From the NCBI GenBank assembly GCA_948470905.1, contig CAOKQK010000027.1:1-39232 (forward strand): a DNA stretch of 39,232 bases. The letters run 5' to 3'. Made by a program: the position numbers and the translations under genes. Of the stretch, positions 176-12,851 are shown piece by piece. The stretch comes from an uncultured Lachnospiraceae bacterium (GTDB lineage: Bacteria > Bacillota > Clostridia > Lachnospirales > Lachnospiraceae). A model generated the notes under the pieces. The model was not told the origin of the DNA and did no database searches. It was given only the letters and a program-made list of their open reading frames with translations. The first letter of the stretch is position 1. Each line of letters starts with the position of its first letter.

Positions 176-202
176 ATAAAGAAAAAGAGAGGTGCATTGA
201 AC

Positions 203-445
203 ATGACAATTGACACTAATACAATGATTTCTATAACAGAAGCAAACCAAAATTTTTCAAAAGTGGCGAGAATGGTAGATAAGCATGGTATGGCTGTCAT
301 TCTTAAAAATAATGCTCCCAGATATCTTGTCATTGATTTTAGCAAAGCAGAAAAAGAACAGGCAGCGAATATGGAAGATGTGCTGGCTGTATCTGAACGA
401 CTGATAAAGCAAAACATGGAGGCTTATGAGGTTCTTGCAAAATGA
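203..445 (+). CDS. Phd/YefM-family antitoxin
   Basis: This 80-aa protein looks like an antitoxin of the Phd/YefM family, whose N-terminal half binds DNA and whose C-terminal tail neutralises the partner toxin. The N-terminus has the family pattern (ISITEANQNFSKVARMVD, then a short strand and VIDFSK), followed by a helical, charged tail. I chose the ATG at 203 over the in-frame TTG at 197 because the GAGAGG ribosome binding site (187-192) is too close to the TTG. The stop codon overlaps the next start (ATGA), the usual translational coupling of a toxin-antitoxin pair. The antitoxin frame is intact although its toxin is broken, so it may persist as a stand-alone repressor. Base composition is AT-rich compared with the housekeeping genes further right. 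Confidence 0.8.
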   Translation: MTIDTNTMISITEANQNFSKVARMVDKHGMAVILKNNAPRYLVIDFSKAEKEQAANMEDVLAVSERLIKQNMEAYEVLAK

Positions 446-814
446 TAAGACTAAACAAAGAACAAGTGGTTAAATTGCATACACAGTTAATAGAAACAAC
501 TGGCGGTAGTCATGGGATTCGGGATGAGAAATTGTTGGATTCTGCTTTAAATAATCCATTTCCGTCTTTTGGTGGGGAAGAATTATATCCGAGTATTCAG
601 GCGAAGGCGGCTCAGCTTTGTTTTGGGCTGGTAAAAAACCATGGTTGATGGGAATAAAAGGTTAAGCGCTCATGTAATGTTGGTATTTCTTGCATTAAAT
701 GGATATGAACTGTCATATAGCCAGGCAGAGTTAACGGAAATTATTTTAGCGACAGCTTCAGGAGACGCCGGAGCCGAAGATATTTTGCAATGGATTTTGG
801 GTCATCAAGATTAG
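442..814 (+). pseudogene. Doc/Fic-family toxin, frameshifted
   Basis: The first 68 codons match the N-terminal half of death-on-curing (Doc) toxins: a helix, then GGSHGIRDEKLLDSAL, FGGEELYP and LVKNH. Reading then stops at TGA 646-648. The rest of the family, starting VDGNKR and running through LALNGYEL to the end of the protein, continues in the +1 frame as far as the TAG at 812-814. The Fic catalytic motif of the family is H-P-F-x-D-G-N-K-R. Here CAT is followed by a single G and then GTT GAT GGG AAT AAA, so five bases covering the Pro-Phe codons appear deleted. Doc proteins are AMP-transferase relatives that phosphorylate elongation factor Tu; this copy should be inactive. An ATG at 641 could restart translation of the C-terminal part, but that fragment lacks the catalytic His. 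Confidence 0.85.
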
Positions 815-830
815 ATGGAATAGAATAGTG

Positions 831-909
831 AGCCTTGCAAAGCGAAATACACCCATTGCACAACTGCGTTTATGCAATAGGGATTTCGCTTTGCAGCGGG
901 GACAAGGCT
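831..909. repeat. Long nested palindrome after the broken toxin gene
   Basis: Three sets of arms nest inside each other: AGCCTT (831-836) with AAGGCT (904-909), GCAAAGCGAAAT (837-848) with a perfect 12-base complement at 883-894, and ATTGCA (855-860) with TGCAAT (873-878). It would fold into one long hairpin. It has no T-tract and no recognised gene, so it resembles a palindromic intergenic repeat more than a terminator. Confidence 0.6.
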
Positions 910-991
910 CAATGTGCTAAAAGAACAGATCAATGCATGGAATTAAGGCATTATTGTGAGGGTGTCTTAAAAAATGAATTTATGAAGAAAG

Positions 992-1438
992 GTGGCAATA
1001 TCCAAAGAGAAGTACCGAACTACATGGTTGTCTTCTTGGTTTGAAAACAGCGCTTCCCATCCGACTTTTAGTTCAAGAGTTAATGATGGAAAGGAATATC
1101 GAAAAAAACTTTATACGTATGATGAAATATTAGAAATAATAGAAAAATACGGTTATCCACAGGATTGGAACAATAATGGGAAGCATGGACCAGAAAGATA
1201 TATTGAAGCTCATTTTTGCCCTTATCAGGGTTCGTAATGCCTTATGGGAAGATATAGTACAAGGGAAAAAGTAAGGGAGATTTCACTTGCTATAAATTTA
1301 GAATTTCCAAGGGTTTGCGGACTTTTTGAAGATAAGATATAACAGTTAATAAATGCTATAAAAAGTGTCTTATCAGAATTCCCATTTATAGAGCAGTTGA
1401 TACAGGAACACTTTTCCGAAAAGGGAGAAAATATATAA
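992..1438 (+). pseudogene. Decayed unknown gene
   Basis: An 81-codon frame begins at GTG 992 and ends at TAA 1235-1237. It encodes a polar sequence with YTYDEILEIIEKYGYPQDW. Coding-like sequence then continues in a second frame (RNALWEDIVQGKK, stop at 1272) and a third (VREISLAINLEFPRVCGLF), where an in-frame TAA precedes QLINAIKSVLSEFPF and the last stop at 1436-1438. The shared composition across three frames suggests one gene broken by two frameshifts and a nonsense codon. I do not recognise the family. The first frame could instead be a short intact protein, but its GTG start has only a weak ribosome binding site. Confidence 0.35.
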
Positions 1439-1447
1439 AATAAAAAT

Positions 1448-1474
1448 ATGGGCTTTCGCAAAAGCCCATGTTTT
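1448..1474 (-). terminator. Bidirectional terminator, mainly for the tRNA-Pro
   Basis: A 9-bp perfect stem, ATGGGCTTT (1448-1456) with AAAGCCCAT (1461-1469), encloses a 4-base loop. On the minus strand it is followed by a long T-rich stretch (ATTTTTATTTTA) and lies about 16 bases after the tRNA 3' end. On the plus strand it is followed by only four T residues. Confidence 0.75.
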
Positions 1475-1484
1475 CAAGGGAAAA

Positions 1485-1558
1485 TCGGCGCGACAGGATT
1501 TGAACCTGCGACCTCAGCGTCCCGAACGCTGCGCTCTACCAAACTGAGCCACGCGCCG
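1485..1558 (-). tRNA. tRNA-Pro (anticodon CGG)
   Basis: A complete 74-nt cloverleaf can be folded on the minus strand. The acceptor stem is CGGCGCG with CGCGCCG and discriminator A. The D arm contains GGCTCAGTTTGGTAGAGC. The anticodon stem CAGCG/CGCTG holds the loop TTCGGGA, giving anticodon CGG. The T arm contains GGTTCAAATCC. The 3' CCA is not encoded. A consensus promoter lies directly upstream and a hairpin terminator downstream. Decayed, AT-rich genes adjoin its 3' end, the side on which islands commonly integrate. Confidence 0.95.
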
Positions 1559-1591
1559 ATTGGTTAAGTTGAATTAACTGCCACTCAATAA

Positions 1592-1620
1592 ATAATATAA
1601 AAAAAAAGGTTGATTGTCAA
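1592..1620 (-). promoter_or_regulatory. Sigma-A promoter of tRNA-Pro
   Basis: On the minus strand, TTGACA (1620-1615) and TATTAT (1597-1592) are separated by exactly 17 bases, with a T-rich spacer. The -10 box lies about 33 bases before the tRNA 5' end. Confidence 0.8.
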
Positions 1621-1736
1621 GGGAAAAACACATAAAATAAAATAATTAAGGCTATAAAATGAAAAATGAAGGCAGAACAGGGCAAGAAATCCTTAAAAGA
1701 CGGGAAAAAGGCGGAGGCATCAGAGGAGAGAAGGCA

Positions 1737-2939
1737 ATGGATCGGACGATTGTGACTTTGAAAAAAGGTGAAGGGCGCACCCTGAAGGCTGGCGGCATGT
1801 GGGTGTATGATAATGAGATTGACTCCATCAAGGGGGATTTTGAGAACGGGGATGTGGTGGAGGTACAGGATTTTGACAGCTACTCCATGGGCTGCGGCTA
1901 TATTAATACCAAGTCCAAAATTACGGTCAGGCTCCTTTCCCGAAAGAAGGATGTGGCCATAGACGGGGCTTTTATGGAGAGGCGGGTCCGGGATGCATGG
2001 GCATACCGCAGGCAGACGATGGACACCTCCAGCTGTCGTCTCATCTTTGGCGAGGCGGATTTCCTTCCGGGGATCGTGGTGGACAAGTTCGCGGATGTAC
2101 TGGTGGTGGAGTCCCTGGCGCTGGGCATCGACAGATGGAAGCTGGCCATTGTGGAAGCGCTGAAAAAGGTGCTGGCGGAGGACGGGATAGCGATCCGCGG
2201 CGTCTACGAGCGCAGTGACGCCAAGGTGCGCCTGCAGGAGGGCATGGAGCGCAGTAAGGGCTTTATCGGGGAGCCTTTTGACACAAAGGTTGAAATTGTG
2301 GAAAACGGCGTGAGATACATTGTCGACGTGGAGGACGGGCAGAAGACAGGCTTTTTCCTGGATCAGAAGAATAACAGGGCGGCCATTCAAAGGTTCTGTA
2401 AGGATAAGAAGGTGCTGGACTGCTTTACCCACACAGGTTCCTTTGCATTGAATGCGGGGATTGCGGGCGCTTCCGGCGTCCTTGGTGTGGATGCCTCCCA
2501 GCTCGCGGTGGATCAGGCGGTGGAAAACGCCCGGCTGAACCGTCTGGAGGATAAGGTGAGATTTCAGTGTGCTGACGTGTTTGAGCTGCTTCCCCAGCTG
2601 GAAGCACAGGGGGAGAGGTACGATGTGGTCATCCTTGATCCGCCGGCCTTTACCAAGTCCAGGAATTCTGTGAAGAATGCGGTAAAGGGATATCGGGAGA
2701 TCAATCTTCGGGGCATGAAGCTGGTGCGGGACGGAGGCTTCCTGGCCACCTGTTCCTGCTCTCATTTCATGGAGCCGGAGCTTTTTGCCAAGACTATCCG
2801 CGAGGCGGCAGCAGGCGCCCACAGGCGCCTGCGCCAGGTGGAATTCCGCACTCAGGCGCCTGACCATCCGATCCTCTGGGCCGCGGATCAGTCGTATTAT
2901 TTGAAGTTCTATATTTTTCAGGTGTGCAGCGAACGCTGA
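1737..2939 (+). CDS. RlmI-like 23S rRNA cytosine-C5 methyltransferase
   Basis: This 400-aa protein is a class I SAM-dependent RNA methyltransferase of the RlmI/YwbD type. These add a methyl group to C5 of a cytosine in 23S rRNA. A PUA-like domain fills roughly the first 80 residues (LKAGGMWVYDNEI). The Rossmann core follows with a SAM motif (CFTHTGSFALNAG), an acidic residue in GVDASQLAVDQA, motif IV DPPAFTKS, and the Cys-bearing TCSCSHFM loop that supplies the catalytic cysteine in this family. The start at 1737 is preferred to the in-frame ATG at 1659 because AGGAGAGAAGG precedes it and the conserved PUA start follows at once. The gene stands alone, reading away from the divergent tRNA-Pro. 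The exact target base is inferred from the family. Confidence 0.85.
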   Translation: MDRTIVTLKKGEGRTLKAGGMWVYDNEIDSIKGDFENGDVVEVQDFDSYSMGCGYINTKSKITVRLLSRKKDVAIDGAFMERRVRDAWAYRRQTMDTSSCRLIFGEADFLPGIVVDKFADVLVVESLALGIDRWKLAIVEALKKVLAEDGIAIRGVYERSDAKVRLQEGMERSKGFIGEPFDTKVEIVENGVRYIVDVEDGQKTGFFLDQKNNRAAIQRFCKDKKVLDCFTHTGSFALNAGIAGASGVLGVDASQLAVDQAVENARLNRLEDKVRFQCADVFELLPQLEAQGERYDVVILDPPAFTKSRNSVKNAVKGYREINLRGMKLVRDGGFLATCSCSHFMEPELFAKTIREAAAGAHRRLRQVEFRTQAPDHPILWAADQSYYLKFYIFQVCSER

Positions 2940-3015: not shown

Positions 3016-3045
3016 TAGAAAAAAGGTAAAGATACCAAATATAAT
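3016..3045 (+). promoter_or_regulatory. Possible promoter of the restriction-modification cassette
   Basis: A perfect TATAAT (3040-3045) sits 42 bases before the methyltransferase start. The only -35 candidate at usable distance is the weak TAGAAA (3016-3021), 18 bases upstream. The -10 box is clear; the -35 is not. Confidence 0.3.
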
Positions 3046-3086: not shown

Positions 3087-5588
3087 ATGGAACTTATTGA
3101 AAGGCTTACATCATTTACACAGGTAAAAACAAAAGAATCAACTATATTGACACATGGAATCCATCCTTACCCGGCCAAATATATTCCTGAGTTGCCAAGG
3201 GAGATAATTAAAGAGTGTACAAAAGAACGTAATACTATATTGGATCCTTTTTGTGGGAGCGGTACAACTTTATTGGAAGCAAGTATGTCCGGCAGAAAAA
3301 GTATTGGAATCGATTCAAACCCCATTGCGGTATTGGTCGCGAAAGCCAAGACAACATCCCTGACGGTAGATGAGCTGAAAAAGATTCAGTTGGTAATAAG
3401 TGAACTATCGACATTGACATATTCGGGTATTCATCAGGGGTGGATTCCGGCTGCCGGTAATCTGAAACATTGGTTTCAGGAAAATATGATATGTGAATTG
3501 TCGTGGCTGAGAGAATACATTTTAGCGAATTCGGTCGGAAATCTTCGAGACTTTCTGCTTTGTATTTTCAGCAGCATAATTGTCACAGTCAGCAATCAGG
3601 AAAGTAATACCAGATATGCGGCAATCAGCAAAGATTTGAAAGATGGGTATGCCATCAATATTTTTATCAAAAAATTGAAGGCGATGTATCCGCGTATTCA
3701 AACAATTTCAGAATGCCAGAACGTTATTAAGAACAGGCCATGCATTATCTTGGAAGACACAGGCAAGGTTGGGGCTGCAGAGATACCTGATAACAGCGTG
3801 GATATTATCATTACATCTCCCCCATATGCTAATACATATGACTATTATCTCTACCATAAGTGGAGAATGATATGGCTGGGGTATGATGTGAAGTCTGTAC
3901 AGGAAAATGAGATAGGTTCAAGGCATGAACATTCCAGTAAAAAGGCGCCATTATCAGTATTTGAAGATAAGATGGTTCCGGTGATGGAGAATTTGTCCCG
4001 AATGCTGAAGCCTAATAAGCTGGCATATTTTTTTGTTGGAGATTCTGTCATATCCGGCGAGTTTATTGATATGAATGAATGTTTTCAGAGAATTGGTGAA
4101 AGGAGCGGATTCAAATATGTTGAAGGCTCCAAATATCTGCTGAAAGATGTGACCAGAAGTTTCCATGAAAAAAAGGAGAATCAGACTGAAAAAATGCAGC
4201 ATATTTTAGTCTTTGAGCCTGATAAAAGGCATGGCTTTTATATGCCGCAGAATGCAATTATGGCTAAACCAAAGTCTGATCTGCATATAGTTGATCTTTT
4301 GAGGGAAAATCCCGTGGATGGGGATGTGATAGCTGTGCAAAATAATGAAGAAACCGGACGGATTCACGGCATAGGTAAATATCCGGCAAAATTTTTCCCT
4401 GATATTCCGGCATGGGCAATCGCAAATTATTCTCAGGCGGGAGATATGATATTTGATCCGTTTAACGGGTGCGGTACTACATGTGTGGAGGCGGGGAAGG
4501 TGGGAAGACATGCAATAGGGCTTGACGTTTCTCCGTTTGCGTGCCTTTTGGCGCGCGCAAATACAAACAGATATGATATGAAACGTCTGTCGAATAAGAC
4601 AGACGATTTTCGCCAATTTTTATCCGACAAGAATAATATAAAAAAAGAAAGGGATTTTTTCTTTGACAATGATGTTTTTTGGTTTAGTGAGAGCAACCTT
4701 TTAGAGATAGAAAGTATAAAGGATTATATCTTTAACATGTATGGCGGTGCTGAAAAAGATTATTTTCTGGCCGTTTTATCATCTATTGTAAAAGCATGCA
4801 GCTATTTGGATGAAAGTCAGATAAAAGTAAAACGTGATCAGAAAAAACTGATCAGAGGAGTTCCGTCTGCGTTTGAAGCAATGGACAGAGCGCTGACAAG
4901 ATATCTTGGTAATGCTTCCGGCAGAACGACAGGTGGTATGCAAGGCGACATAATGATTTATAATGATACAGCACTTCTGTTAGACCGATATGTGCCGGAT
5001 GAGTCCGTTGATCTGATTGTTACATCGCCGCCATACATAAATGCAATGAATTATCCCATGAATAACAGATATGAGAGTTTTCTGCTTTCGCTTGTTTCGC
5101 CTGAAGACAGCATTGAATATCAAACTAAGTTTATTGGAACCGAAAGAGTATATGCGAAGGATTATAATAATATAAAGCAATATGCGGAAAACACAGTCCT
5201 GGGAAGGGAGTTAAATGAGAAGCTGAAAAAAATTTTTTGCAATGAACCGAAAAGAAGCTATATTGTATACAGATTCTTTGATGAAATGAGCAGAGTTTTT
5301 GATCTTGCCGTCAAAACATTAAAAAAAGACGGACGTTTTGTTCTGGTTGCAGGAACCAATAAAATTACGGGCGTCGATATAGACACTTCCGGAATCTTAA
5401 TTAAACTGCTCCAGGAGAGAGGGCTTTGTAAGGAAAAAAGCTTCAAATATGAAATTGTGAAGAACGCGTTAAAGATAAAGAGACATGACACATCTGATAT
5501 CATTAAGTATGATGAAGTTGCTGTTTTAAGTCTGGCTGAGAATTATCGGGGGAAGGAGAAAGATGTCTCAGAACATAATTGTTCATAG
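3087..5588 (+). CDS. Tandem two-domain DNA methyltransferase (N4-cytosine/N6-adenine type)
   Basis: This 833-aa protein consists of two complete methyltransferase modules in one chain. Module 1 has HGIHPYPAKYIP (23-34), SAM motif I DPFCGSGTT (53-61) and catalytic motif IV TSPPY (243-247). Module 2 repeats the plan with HGIGKYPAKFFP (427-438), DPFNGCGTT (457-465) and TSPPY (646-650). Motif order X-I-(~180 aa)-IV is the same in both, with the target recognition region probably in the middle. The (S/T)PPY motif marks exocyclic amino methylation of DNA. Tandem fusion is known from enzymes that protect asymmetric sites, such as M.FokI, where each half methylates one strand. The ATG at 3087 follows GGGAG (3075-3079); the upstream TTG at 3045 lacks a ribosome binding site. 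It is AT-rich compared with the rlmI-like neighbour and is followed, 15 bases on, by the two putative nuclease genes. Confidence 0.88.
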   Translation: MELIERLTSFTQVKTKESTILTHGIHPYPAKYIPELPREIIKECTKERNTILDPFCGSGTTLLEASMSGRKSIGIDSNPIAVLVAKAKTTSLTVDELKKIQLVISELSTLTYSGIHQGWIPAAGNLKHWFQENMICELSWLREYILANSVGNLRDFLLCIFSSIIVTVSNQESNTRYAAISKDLKDGYAINIFIKKLKAMYPRIQTISECQNVIKNRPCIILEDTGKVGAAEIPDNSVDIIITSPPYANTYDYYLYHKWRMIWLGYDVKSVQENEIGSRHEHSSKKAPLSVFEDKMVPVMENLSRMLKPNKLAYFFVGDSVISGEFIDMNECFQRIGERSGFKYVEGSKYLLKDVTRSFHEKKENQTEKMQHILVFEPDKRHGFYMPQNAIMAKPKSDLHIVDLLRENPVDGDVIAVQNNEETGRIHGIGKYPAKFFPDIPAWAIANYSQAGDMIFDPFNGCGTTCVEAGKVGRHAIGLDVSPFACLLARANTNRYDMKRLSNKTDDFRQFLSDKNNIKKERDFFFDNDVFWFSESNLLEIESIKDYIFNMYGGAEKDYFLAVLSSIVKACSYLDESQIKVKRDQKKLIRGVPSAFEAMDRALTRYLGNASGRTTGGMQGDIMIYNDTALLLDRYVPDESVDLIVTSPPYINAMNYPMNNRYESFLLSLVSPEDSIEYQTKFIGTERVYAKDYNNIKQYAENTVLGRELNEKLKKIFCNEPKRSYIVYRFFDEMSRVFDLAVKTLKKDGRFVLVAGTNKITGVDIDTSGILIKLLQERGLCKEKSFKYEIVKNALKIKRHDTSDIIKYDEVAVLSLAENYRGKEKDVSEHNCS

Positions 5589-5603
5589 GGAGATTAATGA
5601 AAG

Positions 5604-6821
5604 ATGAATCACTTTTATTTTTATCACCATAAATCAAAGCGCTTTGCGCAATATGTATATGAATTTTCCAAGGTAAAGTCAATGGTGGCGGGAGGCATTG
5701 CAACATATTCCATTGATAATCTGCCGGACAATAACAGTGTAAGTTTTTCTGAATTGCCTGAGGAACTGAGAAAACTGCTCTTTTTTGCAAAGCCGGATGT
5801 TATTATATGTTATGATAATGGAATATCTCCTGTAAGTCCTGTTTTTGCTTTTGAACTGACAAATCATGTGCCTGCCAGGGACCATTGGCTGCAAAGATTT
5901 AACAATCTTGTAGGATGTGCTCAAATTGGTGTGCCCGGAGCATATGTGCTTCCATTCGATTTATCTTTGAGACGTCCTTTTGGGGGAAAACTGGATTCAG
6001 CCTTTTTCTATGGCTATGACAGGGTGATGGAAATTCACCACACGCCGTTTTATATAGCGGAGTGGGAGTCTTCAGACCGGGCAAACCTGGATTTGGACGC
6101 AGGGTACTCTGATCTGCCAAGACATGATTCAAAGCCTATGGAGAAAGCGTTTGCTTTTTTGGATAAGGTCATTGATGCCGTAATGAGCGGAATTAATACG
6201 GAAATCCTTTTGCAGGACAGGTTGATCGTAGATTTGAGAAATGATATTCGCAGGAGAGCATACACTCCAATACCACAGATAAAGGATTTTGAACGTTTAT
6301 CAAAAAATATGCCGAATAATGATTTCCTTTCATGGGGAGATATGGTGGCTTGGCTGTCAGGAAAGAGTATATCGATCCCCGCAAATCTGCCGGACAGAAT
6401 TGCGAAAAGGCAGCGCAACATGATTTTTACGCCCATTGCCGACGAAAGAGGCAAAACGGATGTTCAAGTAAGAGACAGTTTGAATAAACGAATTAAGGAT
6501 AAAGGGGCAGACCCCTATCTTGGACAGCCGTTGGCGTTTGACTATATTTTCTGTCGTCTGGGAAAGACTCCATATGAGAGGGACGCAAATTTGATAATAG
6601 ATCTGTCTATGCTGAAGTTTGAGGACTTTTCCTGCTATCATCACAAAATTTGGAATAAATGCCCGTTGCAAAATAAGGATATTTTCAAGATTAGAAATGT
6701 TCCGGAGTATACGATGTATTTGACGGAAGGGTGTGTACAGGTAATGAAGAATTTTATCCGAGTGTATTCTTTTTGTGCAGATATTATTATTTTTGAAGAA
6801 GGGATGATCTATTTTTCATGA
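5604..6821 (+). CDS. Putative restriction endonuclease subunit, PD...ExT type
   Basis: I do not recognise a named family for this 405-aa soluble protein. Residues 64-65 are Pro-Asp at the start of a beta strand (KPDVIICYDNG). About 18 residues later comes another hydrophobic strand ending FAFELTNH (Glu84), then a helix with ARDHWLQRFNNLVG. This spacing resembles the PD-(D/E)XK nuclease core, with Thr in place of the usual Lys. The C-terminal ~200 residues contain no motif I know and may recognise DNA. The gene lies between the fused methyltransferase (15-base gap) and a second PD-(D/E)XK protein (4-base ATGA overlap), so all three should be translated together. Low GC content matches its partners and suggests joint transfer. 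It could also be a specificity or accessory subunit rather than a nuclease. It is inference that it cuts DNA. Confidence 0.7.
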   Translation: MNHFYFYHHKSKRFAQYVYEFSKVKSMVAGGIATYSIDNLPDNNSVSFSELPEELRKLLFFAKPDVIICYDNGISPVSPVFAFELTNHVPARDHWLQRFNNLVGCAQIGVPGAYVLPFDLSLRRPFGGKLDSAFFYGYDRVMEIHHTPFYIAEWESSDRANLDLDAGYSDLPRHDSKPMEKAFAFLDKVIDAVMSGINTEILLQDRLIVDLRNDIRRRAYTPIPQIKDFERLSKNMPNNDFLSWGDMVAWLSGKSISIPANLPDRIAKRQRNMIFTPIADERGKTDVQVRDSLNKRIKDKGADPYLGQPLAFDYIFCRLGKTPYERDANLIIDLSMLKFEDFSCYHHKIWNKCPLQNKDIFKIRNVPEYTMYLTEGCVQVMKNFIRVYSFCADIIIFEEGMIYFS

Positions 6822-7309
6822 AGCAGAGAAATTTTCGTGAAGATGATATGCTTGAAATCTATGGGCAAAGTCTGCAGGAGAGAGGATTTAAAATCTTTTC
6901 ATTGAGCGGAAATCAGCAGGGAAGATTCTGGTATGACATCAGGGGACATAGAAAGGCGCCGGATATCGTTGCTGTCAAAAAAGAATTAATTTTGGTTGGG
7001 GAGGGGAAATTAAAAAGCAAAGATCTGTTTGCCGAAAATGGAAAGGAGTATTCGGATTATCAATCTATTGTATACCTGTTGGAAACTCAAGAAGCCTGTG
7101 ATCAATTGCTTCAGAAAATAGAGATCAGCTGTAAAAAAGTCGGAATACCTTTTTTGACAGATATACATTTGAAAGGCATCATTGTCGGGGGAGATCCGTT
7201 TGATAAGTTAAGCGCCCTTATTACAGATAAGCGTGTTGGCTATGCTTATGTTGATGTGAATAACAGGAAAGTTTACGACACCATACAAGCTGAAAGTATT
7301 GAATTTTAA
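6818..7309 (+). CDS. PD-(D/E)XK nuclease, putative restriction subunit
   Basis: This 163-aa protein carries a near-ideal PD-(D/E)XK core. Residues 48-49 are Pro-Asp in RKAPDIVAVKKE, and 12 residues later comes Glu-Gly-Lys (62-64) in LVGEGKLKSKDLF. The first 40 residues hold a helix and FWYDIRGH, as in small endonuclease domains. The start overlaps the stop of the previous gene (ATGA), so translation is probably coupled. There is no transmembrane segment or signal peptide. With a two-module methyltransferase and a second nuclease-like protein upstream, this looks like one strand-cleaving subunit of a heterodimeric enzyme, comparable in logic to BbvCI. That comparison is inference; a repair nuclease or resolvase role cannot be excluded from the sequence. 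Confidence 0.78.
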   Translation: MKQRNFREDDMLEIYGQSLQERGFKIFSLSGNQQGRFWYDIRGHRKAPDIVAVKKELILVGEGKLKSKDLFAENGKEYSDYQSIVYLLETQEACDQLLQKIEISCKKVGIPFLTDIHLKGIIVGGDPFDKLSALITDKRVGYAYVDVNNRKVYDTIQAESIEF

Positions 7310-7334
7310 GGGGGTCTGTTTACGACACCCCTTA
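7307..7334. terminator. Hairpin between two converging operons
   Basis: TAAGGGGGTC (7307-7316) pairs with GACACCCCTTA (7324-7334) with one bulged A, giving a 10-bp stem and a 7-base loop. It includes the stop codon of the nuclease gene on one strand and of the anti-sigma gene on the other. No T-tract follows on either side, so it would be an imperfect terminator or an mRNA 3' end protector. Confidence 0.4.
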
Positions 7335-8165
7335 GCCGCCCTGCTTATGACACTTCCCATGATGGCCGGGGTCTGCCGGATTCGGGGAGGCGGGTTGAAC
7401 CGGGACTGGCGTTCCCATGGGAGATATGCCGTGATGCTGTAATCCGCTTCCGCCCTGATGTCCATGGCAGCTTTCAATCCTGTCATGGATTTCTTTCATT
7501 GTCATATTATGGCACTCCTCAATTGTGACACTGGCGTCATACTGTGAGAGCTCCTGATAGCCTCTGTATTTTCCGAAAGACATTGCGTGTCTGTGGGCTT
7601 CTTCCATGCAGGAGGTATCGCTGGTATACATACATGTTTCGTAATTCCGGGAAAATGCAGCAGCGTTTAAATTTTCCAGTATGGAAGCATATTGGGAGGA
7701 AACGACAGTAAATACCAACAGTGAGTCTTCATTCAGGAAGCCGGAGGCAGACTCATTTGCCAGCAGAGTATCAATTGCCTGGACATAGGGGGCGTTTTTT
7801 AACGACAGCGTCTGCAGGACCAGCTGCCCGTCGTCGTTATATGCGTCTGCGGACACCACCCTGCCGAAGCGGTTGATCCCAAGCTCTATGGAAGGGTTTA
7901 CATCTATACTGATGTAGGATACAGGCTGTCTGTAAACGGAATAGCCGCCTATGCCAAGGAACAGGAATATACACACAGCGGTCAGGACATATTTCAGGCG
8001 GTGATGCCGCTGAAAGGGCTGCGGAGGGGTGCCTGTCTTTGGGGTACTGCTGTCAGGCTTGATATCTTCGGCCTTTTTCAACAGGTATTGCAGCGTGTTT
8101 TTCTTCATTTCCTCGGTTGCCCGTACCCCGTTCAGGCTTTGCCTGATTTTGTTGTTCTCATTCAT
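7332..8165 (-). CDS. RsgI-like membrane anti-sigma factor with His-rich tail
   Basis: This 277-aa protein should hold the adjacent sigma factor inactive at the membrane. An N-terminal cytoplasmic part of about 55 residues is followed by one transmembrane helix (about 58-77, LKYVLTAVCIFLFLGIGGYS). Then comes YISIDVNPSIELGINRFG, a signature of the extracytoplasmic domain of RsgI-type anti-sigma factors. The C-terminal tail is rich in His, Gly, Pro and Cys (CHGHQGG, QHHG, GHHGKCHKQGG) and could bind a metal. The ATG at 8165 is preferred to 8171 because GGAGG lies 9 rather than 3 bases away. It overlaps the sigma factor stop by four bases. RsgI usually partners SigI, whereas the neighbour here is an ECF-type sigma, a variation also found in Clostridia. 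What signal it senses is unknown. Confidence 0.82.
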   Translation of the reverse strand: MNENNKIRQSLNGVRATEEMKKNTLQYLLKKAEDIKPDSSTPKTGTPPQPFQRHHRLKYVLTAVCIFLFLGIGGYSVYRQPVSYISIDVNPSIELGINRFGRVVSADAYNDDGQLVLQTLSLKNAPYVQAIDTLLANESASGFLNEDSLLVFTVVSSQYASILENLNAAAFSRNYETCMYTSDTSCMEEAHRHAMSFGKYRGYQELSQYDASVTIEECHNMTMKEIHDRIESCHGHQGGSGLQHHGISPMGTPVPVQPASPNPADPGHHGKCHKQGG

Positions 8166-8641
8166 GCCCATTCACCTCCCAGCTTCTCCCGCAGTATGCC
8201 CTTTGCCCTGGAAAGCCATGTATATATGGTATTTTCTTTTTTTCCGAGTATTCCTGCAATCTCGGAGGCAGTATATTCTTCATAGTAGTGCAGGTAAATG
8301 ACATTTCGGTACTTTTCCGGAAGCTTCAGGACGATTTCCAGGATCTCAGCCGAGGGACTGTCTAATGAGTCTGATTCCTCAGCTATCACATCGAGCGGCA
8401 CCCATTTCCTTCGTGCGAGGGACCGCAGCCAGTCTGTGCAGGCATTGATGGTCACTCGCACGAACCATGATTTTTCGTGTTCGGCAGTCTCAAAGGAGGT
8501 TGTGTGGAGCAGGTATTTCATATATACATTCTGGAAAACGTCCTCGGTGTCATGCCTGTTTTTCAAATGAACAAAGCAGATTCTCCGCACCATGTCCCCA
8601 TAGGTTTCCATGACACGGGTTAAGTCTTCCTGGCTCTTCAA
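8162..8641 (-). CDS. ECF-type RNA polymerase sigma factor
   Basis: This 159-aa protein has the two-domain layout of extracytoplasmic-function sigma factors. Sigma region 2 spans about residues 8-75 (DTEDVFQNVYMKYL, which recognises the -10 element) and sigma region 4 about 102-152 (LPEKYRNVIYLHYY, then the helix-turn-helix YTASEIAGILGKKENTIYTW). I chose a TTG start at 8641 because AAGGAGGA precedes it by the right distance and the protein then has the normal family length. Extending the frame to 8863 adds 74 residues of low-complexity, unrelated sequence that runs into the upstream gene. It is co-directional and overlapping with the anti-sigma gene. By family rule it should activate its own operon and a small regulon, perhaps including the C-x5 protein upstream. 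Confidence 0.88.
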   Translation of the reverse strand: MKSQEDLTRVMETYGDMVRRICFVHLKNRHDTEDVFQNVYMKYLLHTTSFETAEHEKSWFVRVTINACTDWLRSLARRKWVPLDVIAEESDSLDSPSAEILEIVLKLPEKYRNVIYLHYYEEYTASEIAGILGKKENTIYTWLSRAKGILREKLGGEWA

Positions 8642-8699
8642 AGAAATTCCTCCTTCGGTGTTACGGTGCTGCCCATTCACATTTCGACAAACGATCTGC

Positions 8700-8727
8700 T
8701 GACAAAGTGGTGCCGCACTCTTTGTCA
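8700..8727 (-). other. Hairpin at the end of the C-x5 repeat gene
   Basis: TGACAAAG (8700-8707) pairs perfectly with CTTTGTCA (8720-8727), with an inner GTGC/GCAC extension. It contains the stop codon of the upstream gene. No T-run follows, so it may tune read-through or mRNA decay between the structural gene and the sigma factor rather than stop transcription. Confidence 0.4.
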
Positions 8728-9048
8728 ATGGTGGGATCTGCATCCTCTTTTGGAATAATGGACTGACAGGCTGCCGGTATGGTGTACCGAACAATTTGTA
8801 TCGCTGCAAAGGGCGCCGTTGGGACAGAGGGAAGTATTGATGCAATAACCGCCGTTCTGGCATATTCCGTTTACATCACAGATGCCGTTTTGCGTACATA
8901 CGCCATCCTGCTGACAGGCTGCATACACGACAGTCTGTTTCCGCAAGCTGTGATGGCCGGAGTGCGCATACGCCACATCCGACGCGGCGCCTGCGAAAAG
9001 AATTGCTGCAGCCATTAATAATGAGACTTTTTTGAAACGATTTTTCAT
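8725..9048 (-). CDS. Secreted protein with C-x5 hexapeptide repeats
   Basis: This 107-aa protein begins with a typical signal peptide: KNRFKK, then a hydrophobic stretch LLMAAAILFAGAA, with probable cleavage after AYA near residue 28. The mature protein starts HSGHHS. Its centre has seven cysteines spaced exactly six residues apart (C-QQDGV-C-TQNGI-C-DVNGI-C-QNGGY-C...), then an eighth after a four-residue gap and a ninth near the C-terminus, with His at both ends. The repeat unit reads roughly C-x-x-x-G-(hydrophobic). I recognise no family. Such regular spacing suggests a disulfide ladder, a short beta-solenoid or a metal-binding chain. The ATG at 9048 follows GGAGG by 8 bases. A copy of the ~115-nt structured repeat lies immediately upstream, and the ECF sigma and anti-sigma genes follow. 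Confidence 0.75.
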   Translation of the reverse strand: MKNRFKKVSLLMAAAILFAGAASDVAYAHSGHHSLRKQTVVYAACQQDGVCTQNGICDVNGICQNGGYCINTSLCPNGALCSDTNCSVHHTGSLSVHYSKRGCRSHH

Positions 9049-11608: not shown

Positions 11609-11705
11609 TGCTTTTTTTACTTTATGCTGGAAAAAGATATGAAAAGTGTATATACTGGAAAATGGACGGTTTCAAGAAATGTTTCTGAATGCGGAGAGGG
11701 CAGAG

Positions 11706-12851
11706 ATGCGTATATTTACGGCAATTGACAGGAAGACAGAAAATGTTAAGGACAAGTCTGCGGATAGGACAGGGGAAAATATTTTTAGAAAAAAGATATA
11801 TGGATTGGCAGCGGTTTTGGCAATGACAGTAGTTTTGTCAACGGGCTGCGGAAATCAGGAGGAGCCAGGCGAGTGGCTGGCTCCTGTGCCGCTGGAGACA
11901 TCCGCAGGACCGACCAGGGCGCCGCAGGAGTCCGCGGAGCCGGAGAGGACGGAGCCGCCGGCAGGACCGACCAAAGCGCCGCAGGAGTCCGCGGAGCTGG
12001 AGAGGACGGGGCTGCCGGCAGGACCGACCAATGCGCCGCAGGAGTCCACGGAGCCGGAGAGGACGGAGCCGCAGGCAGGACCGACCAGGGCGCCGCAGGA
12101 GTCCGCGGAACCGGAGAGGACGGAGCCGCCGGCAGAACCGACCAATGCGCCGCAGGAGCCTACGGTGCCGCCATCACCAGAGCCGCAGGAGCCGCTTGTT
12201 CCAACGCCTGTGACGGAGGCGGATGAAGGTTGTCTTGTAGTTATTGACGCGGGGCATCAGCAGAAAGGTAACAGCGATCTGGAGCCCATAGGACCAGGGG
12301 CGGCGGAAACCAAGAAGAAGGTATCCGCCGGCACTGCGGGCAAAACCAGCGGCCTGAACGAGTATGAGCTCAATCTGACAGTAGCGCTGAAGCTGGAAGA
12401 GGAGCTGGTGAGCCGTGGTTATCGGGTGATCATGGTGCGCACTACCCATGATGTGGATATCAGCAACAGTGAGAGGGCGAAGGTGGCAAACGACGCGGAG
12501 GCAGACGCCTTTGTGCGCATTCATGCCAACGGCTCGGAGAACACCTCCGTAAAGGGCGCCATGACCATCTGCCAGACCCCGGCGAATCCTTACAACGGGG
12601 ATCTGTACCAACAGAGCAAGGATCTGGCCGCGGATATCCTGGACGAGCTTGCAGCGGCAACGGGCTGCGAAAAGAGGCGCGTATGGGAGACGGACACCAT
12701 GAGCGGCATCAACTGGTGCCAGGTGCCTGCGACTATCGTGGAAATGGGCTATATGAGCAATCCGGAGGAGGATGCCCTTATGGCGACGGAGGAGTATCAG
12801 GACAAGATTGTGCAGGGGATTGCAAACGGTATTGATAAATTCTTGAAATAG
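11706..12851 (+). CDS. Lipoprotein N-acetylmuramoyl-L-alanine amidase (Amidase_3)
   Basis: This 381-aa enzyme should cut the bond between muramic acid and the stem peptide of peptidoglycan while anchored to the outer face of the membrane. The N-terminus has a basic stretch (FRKK), a hydrophobic segment and the lipobox LSTGC, whose Cys would be lipidated. A Pro/Glu-rich spacer made of 19-residue repeats follows. The Amidase_3 domain fills the C-terminal ~200 residues: zinc ligands in [15 protein letters not shown] and VRIHANGS, and the catalytic Glu in [14 protein letters not shown] prefer the ATG at 11706, which follows GGAGAGGG, over 11646. The cytoplasmic n-region is unusually long for a lipoprotein. 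The gene is divergent from marR. Confidence 0.85.
11907..12191 (+). repeat. 57-bp minisatellite coding for a Pro/Glu-rich spacer
   Basis: Four tandem 57-bp units (starting at 11907, 11964, 12021 and 12078) encode 19 residues each, of the form GPTxAPQESxEPERTxPxA. A fifth, degenerate unit begins at 12135. Units 1 and 4 encode identical residues. The 57-bp period keeps the frame, so copy number changes would alter only the length of the wall-spanning linker. Confidence 0.9.

Follow-up and report, generated by a model that had tools for sequence, protein, structure and literature searches.

Organisation of the cassette

The window analysed here, i.e., the whole stretch of 39,232 nucleotides of contig CAOKQK010000027.1 from an uncultured Lachnospiraceae bacterium (assembly GCA_948470905.1), carries three genes on the plus strand between positions 3087 and 7309. 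They encode an 833-amino-acid (aa) double methyltransferase, a 405-aa protein, and a 163-aa protein. We interpret them as a restriction-modification cassette with an unequal two-protein nuclease because the gene order is conserved, catalytic motifs are present, and both nuclease-like proteins align to one single-chain Type II enzyme. An initial interpretation of the locus, hereafter the sequence-only reading, had described three genes with 15 bases between the first two and a 4-base overlap between the last two, and this layout was confirmed at 3087-5588, 5604-6821, and 6818-7309. The length of the methyltransferase is counted from the ATG at 3087; the open reading frame listing starts at a TTG at 3045 (847 aa). 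Motif conservation is given for two protein sets: A6, the large proteins of the window and of loci L002, L003, L008, L009, L014, and L015 (leaving out L020, which is broken, and L021, which is too distant), and A5, six small proteins (leaving out the broken L008 and L020, and L021, which is distant and lacks the motif).

3087..5588, plus strand: fused double methyltransferase, 833 aa (Pfam N6_N4_Mtase, 1.1e-40; PADLOC MTase_II models on both halves)
3087-4286, plus strand: module 1, approximately residues 1-400
3243..3269, plus strand: module 1 motif I, DPFCGSGTT, residue 53; invariant in 3/3 (window, L002, L003)
3813..3827, plus strand: module 1 motif IV, TSPPY, residue 243; invariant in the same 3/3
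4287-5585, plus strand: module 2, approximately residues 401-833
4455..4481, plus strand: module 2 motif I, DPFNGCGTT, residue 457; invariant in the same 3/3
5022..5036, plus strand: module 2 motif IV, TSPPY, residue 646; invariant in the same 3/3
5604..6821, plus strand: large nuclease subunit, 405 aa, predicted to read the site and nick (PADLOC PDLC03392)
5793..5897, plus strand: predicted catalytic site PD-x18-E-x12-QR, residues 64-98; conserved in A6
6510..6593, plus strand: conserved C-terminal block of the large subunit, residues 303-330, DPYxG..A.DY..CR.G.T...R..NL; second conservation peak, mostly kept in L021
6818..7309, plus strand: small nuclease subunit, 163 aa, starting inside the 4-base overlap (6818-6821) with the large gene
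6959..7009, plus strand: predicted catalytic site PD-x12-E-G-K (P48 D49, E62 G K64), residues 48-64; PD-x12-ExK in 6/6 small proteins of A5

The two methyltransferase modules that the sequence-only reading had seen in the first protein are both there, each with motifs I and IV, and share 26% identity over 388 aligned residues. Judged by these motifs, the protein would provide two methyltransferase activities joined in one chain. A TSPPY motif indicates N4-methylcytosine. Its presence in both modules suggests that the mark is probably N4-methylation of cytosine, in which case a C would be expected on each strand of the site. Among 196 genomes of the class, a profile of the methyltransferase had matches at E-values up to 1e-60 in two only, the genome of the window and that of a Christensenella, and the nuclease pair is present in both. 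The fused protein had no match in viral contigs, and at E-values up to 1e-30 it matched five plasmid records, none of which covers 80% of the query.

The only PADLOC match of the 405-aa protein is the Type II nicking endonuclease model PDLC03392 (3e-6, residues 46-117), which matches 7/7 large proteins of A6; no Pfam, NCBIfam, or PHROG family was matched up to an E-value of 1. In the predicted catalytic site, D65, E84, Q97, R98, and F99 are invariant in 7/7 proteins and P64 is kept in 6/7 (C in L008). The sequence-only reading was right about a PD...ExT arrangement in this protein (P64 D65-x18-E84 L T86) and overlooked the x12-QR that follows E84. When the sequence of this protein was shuffled 20,000 times, a pattern of the form PD-x(8-25)-E-x12-QR arose in 37 cases. 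The C-terminal block is perhaps involved in DNA reading or docking. A search of 299 genomes of the phylum with PDLC03392 gave a match in the genome of the window alone, with silent controls; PDLC03439 had no match in 149 genomes, where the controls were silent as well, which makes this second search uninformative.

The PD-x12-EGK core claimed for the last protein stands. Since PD-x(8-25)-ExK arose in 548 of 20,000 shuffles of the small protein, this motif is weak when taken alone. The only family resemblance is to Pfam Hjc, below cut-off in 6/6 members of A5 (best 0.0047), and structures of Hjc, a Holliday-junction resolvase, match the small protein at 0.012-0.015.

Close relatives share the gene set and its order

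A scan in which each species was represented by one genome, and which detects close relatives only, gave two loci for the 405-aa protein: L002, on a Christensenella chromosome, and L003, in a metagenome-assembled genome of the Oscillospiraceae. The gene set and its order are those of the window in both, and in all three loci the end of the large gene overlaps the small one by 4 bases. By pairwise count, the methyltransferases are 60.3% (window and L002), 61.5% (window and L003), and 72.7% (L002 and L003) identical; the corresponding values are 72.1%, 70.9%, and 89.4% for the large protein and 42.7%, 38.6%, and 60.8% for the small one. The small protein is thus the least conserved of the three in every comparison, as would be expected if site reading is left to the large subunit and the methyltransferase. 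When the single protein served as query, neither the other 60 genomes of the genus nor 38 more from the order gave a match.

Most distant relatives have other methyltransferases

With profiles of the large subunit, matches came from 3 of 392 genomes in the order, 4 of 391 in the class, and 3 of 398 in the phylum. The window's own genome is included in each count, and that for the class also includes Christensenella, recognised by its identical coordinates; the three draws of genomes overlap. The loci added are L008, L009, L014, L015, L020, and L021 (in genomes G195, G324, G786, G860, G522, and G1155, respectively). In the first five, a C5-cytosine methyltransferase adjoins the large subunit. 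That of L014 (Pfam DNA_methylase) is 91% identical to its counterpart in L015, 70% to that in L008, 65% to that in L009, and 41% to that in L020. The sequence-only reading had held that homologues usually found without the methyltransferase would speak against it: a methyltransferase stands beside the large subunit in 8 of the 9 loci, window included, and the reading was not refuted on this point.

A small protein with PD-x12-ENK is encoded downstream in L009, L014, and L015, so that the small gene consistently follows the large one in these loci as in the window, L002, and L003. A single 817-aa open frame of L015 (1695-4148, minus strand) comprises both the C5-methyltransferase and the large subunit, possibly as a mark-and-nick fusion, and the small subunit gene comes next (1246-1695). 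Decayed copies also occur: the small gene of L008 is divided between two overlapping frames (5461-5926, minus strand), and the large gene of L020 is broken (669-2279, minus strand). L021 (5995-8221) encodes a 185-aa protein without PD-ExK before a 560-aa distant relative of the large subunit that keeps most of the C-terminal block, and is possibly a different or repurposed branch. By eye, a transposase resembling those of insertion sequences lies upstream of this pair. L014 (5603-12884) shows a defence-like row of GmrSD, a C5-methyltransferase, the large and small subunits, a second C5-methyltransferase, and a protein with a sub-threshold TIR_2 match.

Two genomes around G786 and eight around G1155 were searched, and only G786 and G1155 themselves came up again. 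The window and L009 proteins found no relatives of the large subunit in plasmid and phage records, and in viral contigs these two queries and two alignments found none either. We consider it possible, at clearly less than even odds, that the nuclease pair is a nicking-type restriction family, unmatched by Pfam and NCBIfam, that exchanges modification partners. The window would then pair it with a fused double N-methyltransferase and distant relatives with one or two C5-methyltransferases; in L015, a C5-methyltransferase joined to the nicking subunit would both mark and nick, and would need only the small partner for a double-strand cut.

The two nuclease proteins align with the ends of a single-chain enzyme

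The five plasmid records with relatives of module 1 (E-values up to 1e-30) show 35-38% identity over 41-43% of the query; module 2 has no clear counterpart among the genes of these records, with 24-30% identity to several. One of them, L045 on a Helicobacter plasmid, has two methyltransferase genes followed by a gene for a 586-aa protein, P0001, which PADLOC assigns to Type II restriction enzymes (5e-67). The methyltransferase next to P0001 is 37% identical to module 1. Using hhalign, we aligned the large profile with residues 50-114 of P0001 (E-value 0.0018), with E-x12-QR in common, and the small profile with residues 395-510 (E-value 8.2e-5). P0001 carries both catalytic signatures in one chain. 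None of 150 shuffles of P0001 scored as high against either profile, and the reversed P0001 and another protein, P0002, scored far lower. BLASTP of the window 405-aa protein against P0001 gave 7e-4 over the same stretch. Because the 405-aa and 163-aa proteins align in an order-preserving way, the large half being carried by the motif, they are most likely the counterparts of the two ends of a single Type II restriction enzyme.

This correspondence bears on two other explanations of the cassette. The first is that it holds two independent specificities, each module protecting its own site and each nuclease-like protein being a separate enzyme. With modules just 26% identical and a separate candidate site in either nuclease protein, the cassette would fit this explanation; yet the large and small proteins match the two ends of one chain, their genes overlap by 4 bases in 3/3 close loci, and the small protein, at 149-163 aa, has little space for a recognition domain. 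We thus regard separate specificities as improbable. Just as improbable is that the small protein is an accessory nuclease of the repair or Holliday-junction type and that the large protein restricts alone. Its sole family resemblance is indeed Hjc, below cut-off, but any small PD-(D/E)xK nuclease could resemble Hjc, and the small protein both keeps a fixed position after the large gene in six loci and aligns with the C-terminal end of P0001, a Type II restriction enzyme in PADLOC.

Records L047 and L048 have two methyltransferase genes followed by a nuclease of the phospholipase D type (a Type II restriction enzyme in PADLOC), and L046 has two methyltransferase genes with a phospholipase D family gene on the opposite strand. 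We take these three to be BfiI-like systems. They resemble the window in having two methyltransferases in a row that are 35-38% identical to module 1, and differ from it in their nuclease, of the phospholipase D family (PADLOC PDLC03425), which is unlike both window subunits: neither the 405-aa nor the 163-aa protein has a phospholipase D match in Pfam or PADLOC. The last record, L044, has one methyltransferase gene and hypothetical proteins, two of which were scanned and had no PADLOC match.

The cassette fits the Type IIT class

Type IIT enzymes are defined by two different catalytic sites (PMC4081073). As described there, some are heterodimers (BbvCI, Bpu10I, BtsI, BsrDI, BspD6I) and others single chains (Mva1269I, BtsCI, BsrI, and others), and their two methyltransferases can be separate or joined. 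For BsrDI, BtsI, and BspD6I, recognition of the entire site is the task of the larger subunit, which cuts one strand, and the smaller is without specificity (PMC4081073). The large subunit of BtsI alone nicks the bottom strand and the small one alone is inactive; the large one has PD at 57-58 and E72 near its N-terminus, and R119A alters its specificity (PMC2909958).

The window cassette would also have two different catalytic sites, by their motifs PD-ExK and PD-E-x12-QR. Its subunits are unequal (405 and 163 aa), and P0001 carries the two corresponding ends in one chain. Xu et al. in 2007 reportedly described a canonical PD-Xn-ExK and a non-canonical PD-Xn-E-X12-QR common to BsrDI, BtsI, BsrI, and BsmI, and it is from this reported description that the motif link to BtsI and BsrDI is drawn; our literature search on the motif returned no restriction-enzyme paper. 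We assign the cassette to Type II restriction-modification, Type IIT, BtsI/BsrDI-like, with a probability of about 0.82, the likeness being drawn from motifs, layout, and published descriptions of BtsI and BsrDI.

The likeness has its limits. As the sources describe them, BtsI and BsrDI share with the window a large and a small nuclease protein, an N-terminal PD..E in the large one, and two methyltransferase activities. However, BtsI has two separate methyltransferases where the window has one fused chain, and its large subunit is of ~38 kDa (computed from concentrations given in PMC2909958) against 405 aa here. The single-chain enzymes (Mva1269I, BsrI, BtsCI) are described as using a different catalytic site for each strand (PMC4081073), which fits the window, but they hold both halves in one chain and not in separate genes. 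BspD6I (BstNBI) is also described as having a large nicking and a small catalytic subunit (PMC6261011). There, however, the large subunit has an N-terminal reading domain and a C-terminal active site (E418 and D456, mutated to inactivate it; PMC6261011), whereas the conserved motif in the window lies at residues 64-98; the C-terminal block could still harbour a second, unrecognised site. The chains of BspD6I in PDB have no sequence match to the window proteins, and BspD6I is a poorer model for the cassette than BtsI and BsrDI.

The sequence-only reading had proposed a restriction-modification system with a fused methyltransferase and an unequal nuclease, and had not recognised the gene set as a named system. 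The first part is supported; the second is not, as the set fits the Type IIT layout described for BtsI and BsrDI (PMC4081073, PMC2909958) and the design is thus already known. The cassette looks complete; it most likely adds a sequence-divergent member to a described class and does not represent a new class.

In the mechanism that we infer, the two nuclease proteins would form a heterodimer that cleaves an asymmetric site strand by strand and may defend against phages. The large subunit would bind the site and cut one strand with its non-canonical PD-E-x12-QR, and alone should act as a nicking enzyme; the small subunit would dock on the large one and cut the other strand with its canonical PD-ExK. 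The fused methyltransferase would mark both strands, one module per strand, protecting the host.

Several observations weigh against this assignment. The large subunit has no sequence match in PDB. The hhalign probabilities with P0001 are low for the large profile (15%) and middling for the small one (61%), and the E-values are those of single comparisons. In L021, the most distant relative, the E-x12-QR site is missing, and its 15 kb encode neither kind of methyltransferase. Finally, the stretches of L008, L009, and L015 hold a single C5-methyltransferase, which ill suits an asymmetric site unless a second one lies elsewhere (the contigs of L009 and L015 are 7.6 and 7.3 kb long).

A LlaJI-like arrangement, in which one protein solely reads the site and the other cuts both strands, is very improbable. 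LlaJI, as described in PMC1459862, does have an asymmetric site, two methyltransferases, and two nuclease subunits, one for specificity and one of the PD-D/ExK type, and we liken the window to it on these points. Yet its methyltransferases are of the C5 type and its specificity subunit R1.LlaJI binds GTP with a McrB-like domain (PMC1459862), and neither was seen in the window: at E-values up to 1, no Pfam or NCBIfam family, and with them no McrB-like GTPase domain, is matched by the 405-aa protein, and the large protein keeps its own nuclease-like motif in 7/7 cases. A Clostridium cellulovorans system with two restriction and two methyltransferase genes was likened to LlaJI by its authors (PMC11779793). 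It is equally improbable that the cassette is decayed or silent: decay does occur in the family (L008, L020), but all three frames in the window are open and all motifs are intact.

Genomic setting of the cassette

The sequence-only reading's view of an AT-rich cassette between unrelated genes was borne out. The G+C content is 39.2% in 3087-7309 and 51.3% in 9653-39232. The left neighbour is an RlmI-like rRNA methyltransferase (Pfam Methyltrans_SAM and PUA_3 above cut-off; NCBIfam models below their curated cut-offs), and the genes on the right (7332-8863, minus strand) look by eye like an anti-sigma/sigma pair. In related loci, the L002 cassette is preceded by an AbiEii gene and a sub-threshold AbiEi match, and the L003 cassette lies upstream of Mob_Pre and a DUF5906 protein. 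The low G+C content, the patchy occurrence, and the defence or mobile neighbours in L002, L003, and L014 would suit a mobile defence module.

Of the 40 other genomes of the genus that were searched, 29 contain a strong match to the RlmI-like gene. We fetched 10 of these 29 matches to look for an empty site, and in 10/10 the DNA similarity ends where the RlmI-like gene ends. The window's anti-sigma, sigma, MATE, and amidase-like genes were not found downstream of the RlmI-like gene in any of the 10 stretches, two of which (L030, L035) reach only 1.6 and 2.6 kb past it. The neighbourhood beside this gene is thus variable, and the comparison demonstrates no insertion point for the cassette. Promoter-like matches (20, against 13.1 in shuffles; standard deviation 3.8) and terminator-like ones (8, against 3.5; standard deviation 2.4) were not used as evidence.

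Elsewhere in the window, and judged by eye only, an 82-aa frame (197-445, plus strand) resembles an antitoxin of the Phd/YefM type, and 11646-12851 (plus strand) encodes a lipoprotein resembling N-acetylmuramoyl-L-alanine amidases, with a repeated linker rich in proline and glutamate.

Implications

If the assignment to Type IIT is true, the large subunit would be a natural nicking enzyme whose recognition site may be new. Nicking enzymes from nature are useful as tools in the laboratory. The family would also show how a two-subunit restriction design is retained while the chemistry of the protecting mark changes.

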